Source: an uncultured Gammaproteobacteria bacterium
GTDB taxonomy: Bacteria > Pseudomonadota > Gammaproteobacteria > Magnimaribacterales > Magnimaribacteraceae
DNA: 64,000 bases
NCBI GenBank assembly: GCA_913031395.1
Contig: CAJWDT010000001.1
Span: forward strand, 1 to 64,000
Reading direction: 5' to 3'
Shown: positions 25,362 through 62,098 of the stretch, piece by piece
How positions within the stretch are numbered: the first letter of the stretch is position 1
How the letters are laid out: each line of letters opens with the position of its first letter
Program-made: the position numbers and the translations under genes
The notes under the pieces: generated by a model
The model's database searches: none
Seen by the model: the letters and a program-made list of their open reading frames with translations, nothing else
What the model was told of the DNA's origin: nothing

Positions 25362-26024
25362 GTGTTAACGGAAGAGCATCAAAAAAGTTTTGTACTTAGA
25401 CGTGGTCGTATAACTTCAAATCAAAAAAATGCATTAGATACACTTTGGGATAGATATGTATTGAAAGAAGGTGAGAATGTCGATAGTTTTTTATCCGATA
25501 AACACTCCGTTCTTGATATTGGCTTTGGAGCTGGAGAAACTACAACCTACTTAGCTAAAAATATGCCAAATAGTTCTATTTTAGGAGCTGAAGTATACCT
25601 TTCAGGAATAGGCTCTACATTAAGTCGGTCTAATGAAGAAAAGCTAACTAATATTAAAATCCTTAATAGTGATATTGTCCCTTTTTTAGAAGAAAAAATC
25701 TCTGATTGCTCATTTGATTTGGTCCTGATGTTTTACCCAGATCCTTGGCCTAAGCGCAAACACCACAAACGCAGATTGTTTCAAGAAGGATTTATTAATT
25801 TGATTCAAAGAAAATTAAGAAAAGACGGTATTTTTTACTTTAAAACAGATTGGAATCACTATTACGAGGAAGCCAAAAAACTTCCTTTTGAAAAGAAAAA
25901 ATGGAAAGTTTTAGACGAGGGTCAACTTGATATCCTTTTGCAGGAACTTCCAGAGACATCCTTCGAAAAAAAAGCCTTAAAAGCAAAGAGAGATTTAAAT
26001 AAGATTATCCTTCAAAAGGTCTAA
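25362..26024 (+). CDS. trmB: tRNA (guanine-N7-)-methyltransferase; GTG start
   Basis: RRGRITSNQKNAL; LDIGFGAGETT; MFYPDPWPKRKHHKRRLFQ. Confidence 0.95.
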   Translation: MLTEEHQKSFVLRRGRITSNQKNALDTLWDRYVLKEGENVDSFLSDKHSVLDIGFGAGETTTYLAKNMPNSSILGAEVYLSGIGSTLSRSNEEKLTNIKILNSDIVPFLEEKISDCSFDLVLMFYPDPWPKRKHHKRRLFQEGFINLIQRKLRKDGIFYFKTDWNHYYEEAKKLPFEKKKWKVLDEGQLDILLQELPETSFEKKALKAKRDLNKIILQKV

Positions 26025-26602
26025 CATATTAGTTTGGGTATCTCTTTTAGAAGTTTAGTGAAAGCAGCCGATCTATGAGAGATTAAATTTTTCTCTTCTT
26101 TTTTAAGTTCGGCAAGATGGAATCCGCTTTTAGTAATAAAAATTGGATCATATCCAAAACCATTCTCCCCTTTAAACTCTGTAGATATTTCTCCATCTAA
26201 AGATCCAAAGCTTTTTATGATTTTTCCTTTATAGAAGCCTACTAAGCAGCATTTGAATCTTGCTGTCCTCTGAGGATCTTTGATTGCTTTAAGATTCTCA
26301 AGAAGTTTAAGGCAATTATCTCTATCTTGGCCCGAATCAGCATACCTGGCAGAATAAATTCCTGGTTCACCATTTAGAATATCAACTTCGAGACCTGAAT
26401 CGTCTCCTATGGCAGGAACTTCAAGAGTATCTGAAATAAATTTTGCTTTAATGAGTGCATTCTCATAGAAAGTTTTCCCAGTTTCGGGTGGAAGGGATTC
26501 TATATTTGCGGGAATAGGAAAAAACTCATATTGAGTATTCTTGGCAAGTTCTTGAAATTCTTTTAATTTACCTAAGTTTTTCGTAGCAATAGCTATTTTC
26601 AT
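26021..26602 (-). CDS. rdgB: XTP/dITP diphosphatase (RdgB/HAM1)
   Basis: MKIAIATKNLGKLKEFQ; TFYENALIKAKF; GDDSGLEVDILNGEPGIYSARYA; GENGFGYDPIF; LISHRSAAF. Confidence 0.96.
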   Translation of the reverse strand: MKIAIATKNLGKLKEFQELAKNTQYEFFPIPANIESLPPETGKTFYENALIKAKFISDTLEVPAIGDDSGLEVDILNGEPGIYSARYADSGQDRDNCLKLLENLKAIKDPQRTARFKCCLVGFYKGKIIKSFGSLDGEISTEFKGENGFGYDPIFITKSGFHLAELKKEEKNLISHRSAAFTKLLKEIPKLIC

Positions 26603-27186
26603 TTTGAAATCTTATACATTGCTGTAGAAGCAAAGATATTTGGTAAAAAAGCTGTCAAAAAGTTCTCATTACCAGCGTTACTGAAAAATCTTTTTTCTAT
26701 TATATTGATACCGCAATCTTCACATAGCAACTCAAAGTCTGAAATTGTACAAAGGTGAATGTTAGGCGTGTTGTGCCACTTATCTGGAAGGGAACTGGTA
26801 ACTGGCATTTTTCCTGAGAGCAAAAGATTAATTCTAGTAGACCAATGACCAAAATTAGGGATGGTCACTATGCTCTCCCTGCCAATTCTAGTGACTTCTA
26901 ATAAAGCCTTTTTGGGCTCTTTTAATACCTGGATTGTTTGACTCATGATTACAGTATCGAAACTCTCATCTTTAAAATTATCTAATCCTTCATCGATATT
27001 TTGCTGAACAACGTTTAGTCCGGACTGGATACAGTTATTTATATTGGATTGATCAATTTCTATGCCCAAAGAAGAGGTATTGAGTTTTTCAGATAAATAT
27101 TTAAGAATTTCACCTTTTCCACACCCAAGATCCAGGATATCGGAATCTTTTTTTACCCAGTTTCTGATAACTTCTAATGTATTCAT
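26599..27186 (-). CDS. metW: Methionine biosynthesis protein MetW
   Basis: VLDLGCGKGEIL-type motif; VVQQNIDEGLDNF; VIMSQTIQVLKEPKKALLEVTRIG; VTIPNFGHWSTR. Confidence 0.95.
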   Translation of the reverse strand: MNTLEVIRNWVKKDSDILDLGCGKGEILKYLSEKLNTSSLGIEIDQSNINNCIQSGLNVVQQNIDEGLDNFKDESFDTVIMSQTIQVLKEPKKALLEVTRIGRESIVTIPNFGHWSTRINLLLSGKMPVTSSLPDKWHNTPNIHLCTISDFELLCEDCGINIIEKRFFSNAGNENFLTAFLPNIFASTAMYKISK

Positions 27187-28296
27187 TTAATTCTCTAAAA
27201 ATGACGAGAGACCATTCACATAATCTTTATCGGCGAACAAAAAAGAATCATGTCCATGCGGACTTTCAATTTCTAAATAACTTACATTTTTTTTAGCCTC
27301 AATAAGCGCATTAACTATTTCTTTAGACCTATCTGGAGAAAACCTCCAGTCTGTAGAAAAAGAAATGACCATTACTTGAGCTTCAATTTCTTGAAATGCC
27401 ATAGATAAATTTCCGTTGAATTTTTCGGCAGGATCAAAATAATCTAATATTTTTGTCATTAAAAGATAGGTATTAGCATCAAAGGACTCAGAAAATACAT
27501 CACCTTGATACCTTAGATAACTTTCTATCTCAAACTCGGCATCAAAACCAAAATTTAATTTATCTTCTTTGAGTTCTCTTCCAAATTTACTCCTCATGGC
27601 CTCTTCAGATAAGTAGGTTATATGACCAATCATTCTTGCTAGTCCTAAACCTTTTTTTGGAGATTTATTTTTTTCTAAATATCTTCCTGACTCAAAATCA
27701 GGATCATTAATTATTGCTTGCCTTGCAACCTCATTGAAGGCGATATTTTGGGCACTAAGCTTTGGTGCAGCGGCTACTATTCCCGCCTTCTTTATTCTTT
27801 TTGGAAAAAGACGCGACCATTCTAGAGCCTGCATACCTCCTAAGCTTCCGCCAACGACTGCATGCCATATTTTTATACCAAGAGAATCAGAAATCATGCT
27901 CTGACATTTAACCCAGTCTTGCACGGTTATGATGGGAAAGTCGGGTCCATAAGTTTCATTCGTTTCTTTATTTATCGAGCTGGGTCCTGTAGATCCATGA
28001 CATCCGCCAATATTATTTGGGCAGACTACGAAAAACTTTTCTGTATCAATTGCTTTTCCGGGTCCTATAAGTGAATCCCACCATCCAGGTCTGTCTTCAT
28101 CATCATAAGTCCCAGCAGCATGATGATTTCCACTAAGAGCATGACAAATAAGAATAGCATTTGAAGCTTCTGAGTTGAGGTCTCCATAGGTTTCGTAGAC
28201 TATATCTATATTGCTAAGGGTCTGACCACATTCAAGATCAAGATCTCCATCAAGAGATAACTTCTTAGCTTCTACGTTTCGTATTGAATTACTCAT
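27187..28296 (-). CDS. metX: Homoserine O-acyltransferase MetX
   Basis: CHALSGNHHAAG; GGCHGSTGPSS; VVGGSLGGMQALEWS nucleophile elbow; ATG at 28296 is preferred because the longer track ORF (TTG 28314) reads through a terminator hairpin. Confidence 0.95.
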   Translation of the reverse strand: MSNSIRNVEAKKLSLDGDLDLECGQTLSNIDIVYETYGDLNSEASNAILICHALSGNHHAAGTYDDEDRPGWWDSLIGPGKAIDTEKFFVVCPNNIGGCHGSTGPSSINKETNETYGPDFPIITVQDWVKCQSMISDSLGIKIWHAVVGGSLGGMQALEWSRLFPKRIKKAGIVAAAPKLSAQNIAFNEVARQAIINDPDFESGRYLEKNKSPKKGLGLARMIGHITYLSEEAMRSKFGRELKEDKLNFGFDAEFEIESYLRYQGDVFSESFDANTYLLMTKILDYFDPAEKFNGNLSMAFQEIEAQVMVISFSTDWRFSPDRSKEIVNALIEAKKNVSYLEIESPHGHDSFLFADKDYVNGLSSFLEN

Positions 28297-28297
28297 A

Positions 28298-28330
28298 AAA
28301 AAACCCGTTCGCAAAAGCTAAACAGGCTTA
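28298..28330 (-). terminator. Intrinsic terminator-like hairpin of metX leader (CCTGTTTAGCTTTTGCGAACGGG followed by T7)
   Basis: Minus-strand CCUGUU/AACGGG stem with inner GC/GC and UUUU loop, followed by seven U just before the ATG. Confidence 0.65.
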
Positions 28331-28336
28331 ATTAAA

Positions 28337-28388
28337 GGCATTAGCTGTATTTTAATTAAACGCCCGCAAGCTATGTCAAATCGGCGTT
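28337..28388 (-). ncRNA. SAM-II-like riboswitch aptamer upstream of metX
   Basis: Minus strand AACGCC-GATTTGACATAGCTTGCG-GGCGTT-TAATTAAAATACA-GCTAATG: 6-bp P1 (AACGCC/GGCGTT), loop CATAGC forms pseudoknot with 3' GCTA(A)TG; GATTTgAC and GCTAA match the SAM-II core. Confidence 0.82.
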
Positions 28389-28393
28389 AAACT

Positions 28394-28422
28394 ATTATAT
28401 TTGAACTATGCTTAGAAACCAA
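28394..28422 (-). promoter_or_regulatory. Predicted sigma-70 promoter for the metX leader (TTGGTT-N17-TATAAT)
   Basis: -35 at 28417-28422, -10 at 28394-28399, spacer 17; predicted start site lands at the first base pair of the aptamer P1. Confidence 0.6.
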
Positions 28423-61027: not shown

Positions 61028-62098
61028 TTATCTAAAAAACTCTATGATTTCTTTATTCATGAATTCAACGTCTTCCGACGAGAATCCTGCCCCAGCAATA
61101 TGACCCCATAAAGAAGGAATTACTCTTAATTTTACTCCCGAGATTAATTGAGCCTCTTTAGTCAAGGCATCTATGTGGAAGTACATATCAGTTTCACTGG
61201 GCATATAGAGTACTTCGGCTTTTATAGAGGCAAGAGCTTTGACATAGTCGCCATTAAATCCCGTTGTGTTTCCTATATTATTAGTCTGCCAAGTTCTCGC
61301 AAGGGCGATGAGGTTATTTGCGTCCCATGTCAAAACAAAATCTTCAAACCAACTAACCACCTCGAGTGGATTATTTAGTCCCATCTCTCTATAAAGTTTC
61401 AATCTAAACCATTCTTGCGACCATCCCCAACTGGCCCAATGTGCTCCTCCAGCTCTCAACCCAGTTTCTGGAGGATATTTATAATTTCCTTCATTAAATG
61501 AACTGTCTGCTTTGATTGCAGATATAAAACCTTCTAGTCTGACAATACCATGAGGGTATTCAACAGCTGAACCAGCTATACCTACTATTTTTTTTACAAA
61601 ATCAGGATAACTAACGCCCCATTGGAAAGCTTGTTGTGCTCCCATGGAAAAGCCAACAACTCCATATATCTCTTTAACTTTGAAGACCTCAGTAACCAAT
61701 CTATAGCCAGCATTAACATTATCTCGAGTAGAAATTAAAGGAAAATTTGGACCATTGAAAGGAGGTTCGGTATTGCTTGGAGAACTCGATAAGCCATTTT
61801 GGAACATATCTGTGGCTACAATAAAATATTTATTTGGGTCTAAAGCTTTTCCTTTGTCGATTAAGAAGTCAAATCCATGATGGTCTCCAAGATAAGCTGA
61901 AGGTACAACGATAAGATTATTCTTTTCTTTGTTTAATTTTCCATGTGTAACATAAGAAAGTTTAGCTTCAGGAAGTACAACACCACTTTCAAGAAAAAAA
62001 TCTCCTAAATTAAATATTTTATGTTCACCCTCTGAGAAAAAAATTGATGAATAAGTTAAGAAAAATAAGAAGAATATATGTTTTATAAGGTCTTTCAT
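61028..62098 (-). CDS. Secreted alpha/beta hydrolase related to homoserine O-acetyltransferase (MetX-like)
   Basis: Signal peptide; LPEAKLSYVTHGKLN; GVVGFSMGAQQAFQWGVSYPDFVKKIVGIAGSA; C-terminal GHIAGAGF. Confidence 0.85.
   Translation of the reverse strand: MKDLIKHIFFLFFLTYSSIFFSEGEHKIFNLGDFFLESGVVLPEAKLSYVTHGKLNKEKNNLIVVPSAYLGDHHGFDFLIDKGKALDPNKYFIVATDMFQNGLSSSPSNTEPPFNGPNFPLISTRDNVNAGYRLVTEVFKVKEIYGVVGFSMGAQQAFQWGVSYPDFVKKIVGIAGSAVEYPHGIVRLEGFISAIKADSSFNEGNYKYPPETGLRAGGAHWASWGWSQEWFRLKLYREMGLNNPLEVVSWFEDFVLTWDANNLIALARTWQTNNIGNTTGFNGDYVKALASIKAEVLYMPSETDMYFHIDALTKEAQLISGVKLRVIPSLWGHIAGAGFSSEDVEFMNKEIIEFFR

Follow-up and report, generated by a model that had tools for sequence, protein, structure and literature searches.

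A divergent SAM-II switch upstream of metX

The leader of the metX-metW-rdgB operon in this SAR86 genome probably carries a divergent SAM-II riboswitch that would sense SAM and switch the operon off, mainly via transcription termination—a reading to which, on the sequence comparisons set out below, we assign a probability of about 0.68. It draws support from a family-specific covariance model, covariation in stem P1, the retention of 12 of 13 pocket bases, conservation of the aptamer, a compensatory change in the terminator and an antiterminator fold common to 20 of 20 leaders, as well as from the SAM_alpha matches that the genome has at two other sites, one of them 5' of metY. Pointing the other way are the lack of an Rfam match at the site, a U in place of A47, a P1 of 4 bp in close relatives and the statistics of the antiterminator. 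SAR86-cluster bacteria occur in large numbers in surface seawater, and the metX copy of the switch represents a natural substitution at an otherwise invariant SAM-contacting base, with a normal copy present in the same genome; the metX/metY pair is a ready-made test of how much the A47 contact matters.

Operon and leader organization

The window—the whole 64,000-nucleotide stretch analysed—comes from a 1.08-Mb draft genome. Within it, metX, metW and rdgB form a tightly packed operon whose gene identities are backed by family models (Table 1), with the MetX protein passing the succinyltransferase model. Control of these three genes by the predicted switch, as proposed in the first-pass annotation, is supported. 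Read on the minus strand from yggT to metX, the leader comprises TTGGTT, 17 nt, TATAAT and AACGCC GATTTGACATAGCTTGCG GGCGTT TAATTAAAATACA GCTAATGC, followed 3' of the aptamer by the hairpin GCCTGTTTAGCTTTTGCGAACGGG, T7 and the metX ATG. All of the motifs listed in that annotation (TTGGTT-17 nt-TATAAT, AACGCC...GGCGTT, GATTTG, GCTAATG and the hairpin with T7) were found as read. The -10 box is perfect and conserved; TTGGTT is weak, as it fits the -35 consensus at only 3/6 positions. A consensus scan for promoters and terminators returned neither the leader promoter nor the terminator, the former because of this partial -35 fit. Elsewhere in the window, a second MetX-like protein with 32% identity to MetX is encoded at 61163-62020 on the minus strand, and many genomes of the genus have one.

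Table 1. Features of the metX leader and operon (positions in the window)
Feature	Position	Strand	Remarks
metX	27187..28296	-	starts at ATG at 28296; NCBIfam MetX_succinyl, 603 bits
metW	26599..27186	-	NCBIfam TIGR02081, 236 bits
rdgB	26021..26602	-	NCBIfam TIGR00042, 183 bits
-35-like TTGGTT	28417..28422	-	within the last yggT codons; weak
-10 box TATAAT	28394..28399	-	identical (100%) across 15 members of the genus
P1 5' strand AACGCC	28383..28388	-	predicted transcription start
L1 GAUUUG	28377..28382	-	carries three pocket uridines (SAM-II U10-U12); invariant in 29 leaders
P2 (pseudoknot) 5' strand GCUUGC	28366..28371	-	alignment and pair counts
P1 3' strand GGCGUU	28359..28364	-	R1 match, pair counts
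L3	28346..28358	-	13 nt, against 11 nt in both ordinary SAM-II and the g2 and g3 metX leaders
P2 3' strand GCUAAUGC	28338..28345	-	alignment and pair counts
U at SAM-II A47 position	28340	-	A47 contacts the methionine part of SAM
Predicted antiterminator 5' strand	28351..28372	-	overlaps P2 5' strand, P1 3' strand and L3; lowest-energy SAM-free fold
Predicted antiterminator 3' strand	28316..28336	-	overlaps terminator 5' arm
Terminator hairpin GCCUGUUUAGCUUUUGCGAACGGG	28304..28327	-	paired in all genera
Terminator U-run	28297..28303	-	immediately 5' of the metX ATG

Assignment to the SAM-II class

Searches of the window with RF00521 (SAM-II, listed as SAM_alpha) and RF01826 (SAM-V) gave no match up to E=10, and the Rfam search returned no SAM family either at gathering thresholds or at E<=10, where hits to mir-19, MicC, BSnc119 and other families were rejected as chance-level. 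The gathering cut-off of RF00521 is 36 bits; the window element stays below it, and many accepted-looking relatives also lie just under it (26-36 bits). A different picture emerged from a covariance model, R1, trained on 20 SAM-II elements from the same bacterial family with all metX leaders excluded. Across the whole genome, R1 scored the window site at 28.8 bits (E=1.3e-4), ranking it third behind two other SAM-II copies and well separated from the fourth match at 14.8 bits; against the window alone, the E-value was 7.5e-6. The model matched the metX leaders of the family in 29/29 cases, with 59-66 bits in g2 and g3 and 19-31 bits in g1, g4, g5 and g7. Moreover, RF00521 itself picks up the metX leaders of the sister genera g2 and g3 (32-36 bits), with weak RF01726 matches as well, and all six P1 pairs covary among the SAM-II copies of the family.

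By the R1 matches and the RF00521 matches of the g2 and g3 leaders, the window element is orthologous to ordinary SAM-II switches but has diverged from the model. On this comparative evidence, the metX leader is classified as truly belonging to the SAM-II family, though divergent and missed by the standard models, and the class proposed in the first-pass annotation is upheld. That annotation had named, as grounds against itself, the joint lack of any RF00521 or RF01826 hit and of compensatory substitutions in homologous leaders. The hits are indeed lacking, but the SAM_alpha matches in g2 and g3, the P1 covariation and a compensatory G-C to U-A change in the terminator count against the second point. 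Assignment to SAM-V or to the SAM/SAH riboswitches instead appears highly improbable: SAM-V is frequent in marine bacteria and has nearly the same fold, pocket and pseudoknot as SAM-II (PMC6061858), but it acts translationally and has other stem lengths, and up to E=10 neither RF01826 nor RF01727 matched the window region or any metX leader that was tested, whereas the sister-genus leaders match the SAM-II model.

Comparison of the 29-leader alignment with the published pocket (PMC3764141) showed that U10-U12, U20-C23 and G42-A46 are all present and invariant, so that the window element holds 12 of the 13 pocket bases listed there as completely conserved. The exception is A47; because this base is replaced, the element was filed as a SAM-II-derived variant rather than a standard SAM-II—an established type of switch whose pocket is unusual.

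Stem P1 and the pseudoknot across relatives

Leaders of g1 and g4 differ from ordinary SAM-II at four points, namely the outer part of P1, the length of L3, the outer part of P2 and A47 (alignment of 29 family metX leaders, with pair counts from the same set). The perfect 6-bp P1 stem noted in the first-pass annotation is real in the window, yet each of the 22 other leaders of g1, g4 and g5 has U.U in place of both outer A-U pairs; the conserved P1 core is 4 bp (CGCC/GGCG), and the full 6 bp are kept only in the window, g2 and g3. The outer P2 pairs in g1 and g4 are GC/GC, as opposed to CC/GG in ordinary SAM-II. With regard to the pseudoknot, the register proposed earlier (CATAGC/GCTAATG) can be drawn in the window but proved to be the wrong one: its three outer pairs are unpaired in 14, 10 and 8 of the 29 leaders, plus 2 gaps, and it uses the adjoining AGC—which is AGA in many metY copies—in place of UUGC. 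All 29 leaders, in contrast, keep the SAM-II register (UUGC with GC(U)AA) unbroken. Since the inner P2 is invariant throughout this set, it carries no covariation support of its own.

The pocket position A47 and its maintenance

The replacement of A47, a feature absent from the first-pass annotation, was found to be rare and confined. Position 47 is U in the window and in g1 and g4 (C in one genome, G018), and A in g2, g3, g5 and g7. Among 119 proteobacterial loci with a similar aptamer, 118 have A at this position, the sole exception being this SAR86 genus. In a class sample of 387 genomes, the A47 pattern occurred at 68 sites in 64 genomes and another base at 47 only at the window site, with the qualification that both patterns require identical flanks and so pass over aptamers that have diverged further. 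In the MetX tree, the g1+g4 clade is supported at 89/88, which is consistent with a single A47 change, and the metX copy alone is altered, the metY copies retaining A47. In SAM-V, A50 binds the aminoacyl end of the ligand (PMC6061858).

Conservation figures indicate that the altered element is maintained rather than decaying: aptamer identity among the g1 genomes (n = 15) reaches 97.0%, compared with 41.3% at fourfold metX sites and 47.1% in the 6-nt spacer 5' of P1. On these figures, decay of the element was rejected, and selection keeps the altered pocket in place. For the same reason, we regard it as improbable that the leader is a ligand-blind SAM-II remnant now serving as a plain constitutive attenuator. 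The lost pocket base, the shortened P1, the longer L3 and the loss of the U-run in three genomes would fit such a remnant, but neither the ligand-pocket positions in L1 nor those in the inner P2 show any variation.

A further possibility is that the switch still controls metX while the A47-to-U change has altered its ligand or affinity, for instance towards a related molecule whose side chain differs from that of SAM. The near-invariance of A47 elsewhere and the selection on a U47 variant limited to the metX copy favor this idea, as does the precedent of spermidine-sensing SAM-I variants, in which the contact bases of a SAM aptamer are changed (PMC10853860). Those variants, however, have another fold, several altered contacts and a polyamine gene context (PMC10853860), whereas metX is the usual SAM-II gene context and the remaining pocket bases are all kept here; in addition, the C in one genome could mean that the site is merely relaxed. 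A changed ligand or affinity therefore seems rather unlikely next to SAM sensing by the divergent SAM-II switch. We are equally doubtful about the broader scenario of a stable SAM-II variant arising in a SAR86 lineage, with A47 replaced and specificity or affinity altered at metX only, the antiterminator rebuilt and the metY pocket left normal.

Terminator, antiterminator and proposed mechanism

Every genus keeps the terminator stem; substitutions within it include one compensatory G-C to U-A change and several G-U changes. In three genomes (G001, G006 and G014), the U-run is replaced by UUUAAUU and the stem is retained. The 3' arm of this stem contains the only SD-like bases 5' of metX, which suggests a translational component.

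When the leader is folded up to, but excluding, the terminator 3' arm, the lowest-energy structure contains the same long stem in 20/20 leaders of g1 and g4. In essence, AGC-GCGGG-UUUAAUU pairs there with AAUUAAA-CCUGU-AGC, and a consensus fold was computed for it. This stem competes simultaneously with P1, P2 and the terminator. Its substitution support is modest, consisting of one-sided, pair-preserving changes only; a covariation test on the short 8-bp part of the antiterminator stem could not be separated from shuffles, and the stability of the shortened leader is not unusual (z -0.79). In the metY copy, the P2 3' strand GCUAAAUAGG folds against CCUGUUUAGC as a 10-bp stem. An equivalent GCUAA/UUAGC antiterminator suits this copy and many other loci, but it is broken in part of g1 and was rejected for the metX leader in favor of pairing through the P1 3' strand and L3. 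The complement of GCUAAAG occurs in 32/90 distinct proteobacterial terminators, the top value among permutations of the same letters (mean 1.5). It thus seems a general property of transcriptional SAM-II switches that the pseudoknot strand competes with a terminator arm, the comparison suggesting a general antitermination mechanism, and the SAR86 metX clade seems to have moved the competition to the P1/L3 strand.

Under the proposed mechanism, the first P1 base would be the transcription start. As long as no ligand is bound, the P2 5' strand, the P1 3' strand and L3, together the 3' half of the aptamer, would pair with bases before and within the terminator 5' arm, and the resulting antiterminator would let the polymerase continue into metX. 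With SAM present, P1 and the pseudoknot would close, freeing the terminator arm so that the hairpin could form ahead of the U-run that ends at the metX ATG. As the hairpin would mask the only SD-like bases, translation would probably be blocked as well; a translational mode would also fit the three relatives with the hairpin but no U-run.

Relation to known systems

SAM-II representatives such as A. tumefaciens metA and S. meliloti metZ share with the window element one stem plus a pseudoknot and the GAUUUG, UUGC and GCUAA core, in addition to a promoter near P1, a terminator and a methionine-gene context (PMC1273637, PMC9373788). The window element departs from them in scoring below detection with RF00521, in having U at position 47, a 13-nt L3 and GC/GC rather than CC/GG outer P2 pairs, and in a predicted antiterminator that employs the P1 3' strand and L3. 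The promoter-aptamer-terminator layout is nothing out of the ordinary: a promoter beside P1 and terminators were already described as usual for SAM-II in 2005, together with a few members beyond the alphaproteobacteria (PMC1273637). For S. meliloti metZ, termination was predicted and a fitting RNA of about 100 nt observed (PMC9373788).

Using Rfam, Leyn et al. 2014 placed SAM_alpha only in Rhizobiales and Rhodobacterales, and they described a new metXZ element with a pseudoknot and a terminator 5' of metXW and metZ in beta-proteobacteria (PMC4239095). This element has in common with the window leader the pseudoknot, two alternative conformations, the terminator and the position 5' of metXW or metZ; as described there, it is a new element and not SAM-II (PMC4239095). 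Our pattern-found loci reproduce the metX/metZ split, with metZ in Nitrosospira and Methylophilaceae and metX elsewhere, and they keep A47. Given this split and the RF00521 and R1 scores of these loci, the published metXZ element appears to belong to SAM-II.

Other copies and distribution

The same genome contains a SAM_alpha match of 36.0 bits 5' of metY and another of 25.6 bits 5' of a TonB-dependent receptor gene (L002, G000:C8:38704-38777, minus strand). In relatives, SAM-II copies also precede OmpW-family proteins and homocysteine S-methyltransferases. SAM_alpha matches were detected in 34/35 family genomes (E<=0.01) and in 91/151 sampled genomes of the order (E<=0.001), nearly all under the Rfam cut-off, and 64 of the 387 sampled class genomes have a close relative. 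The earlier suggestion that such a switch is unusual in gammaproteobacteria is not sustained by this last figure. The one paper found to name both the SAM-II riboswitch and SAR86 concerns Pelagibacter.

The pattern-found loci precede metX, metZ, metY, metH, metK, metN, metA and aspartokinase/hom (names read from translations). Where tested, RF00521 gives them 26-42 bits; R1 gives 35-66 bits, with the SAR86 locus L084 at 20 bits. Since they were selected with the P1 core and loop ends of the window element, only L3, position 47 and the terminators count as independent evidence. Tandem pairs of SAM-II matches were observed at L087:4229-4405 and L180:2415-2590, the latter 5' of a metK-like gene, and a SAM-II-like aptamer lies 5' of a metN-like transporter gene on a contig from a viral collection (L188:10233-10259), which may be a bacterial stretch. 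Finally, RF02424 (Bp2_287, 'Burkholderia sRNA') gave repeated sub-threshold matches on the strand opposite SAM-II elements (L079, L087, L106, L108, L113, L133, L196, L198, L209 and L211), and this family may be a wrong-strand record of the SAM-II riboswitch.
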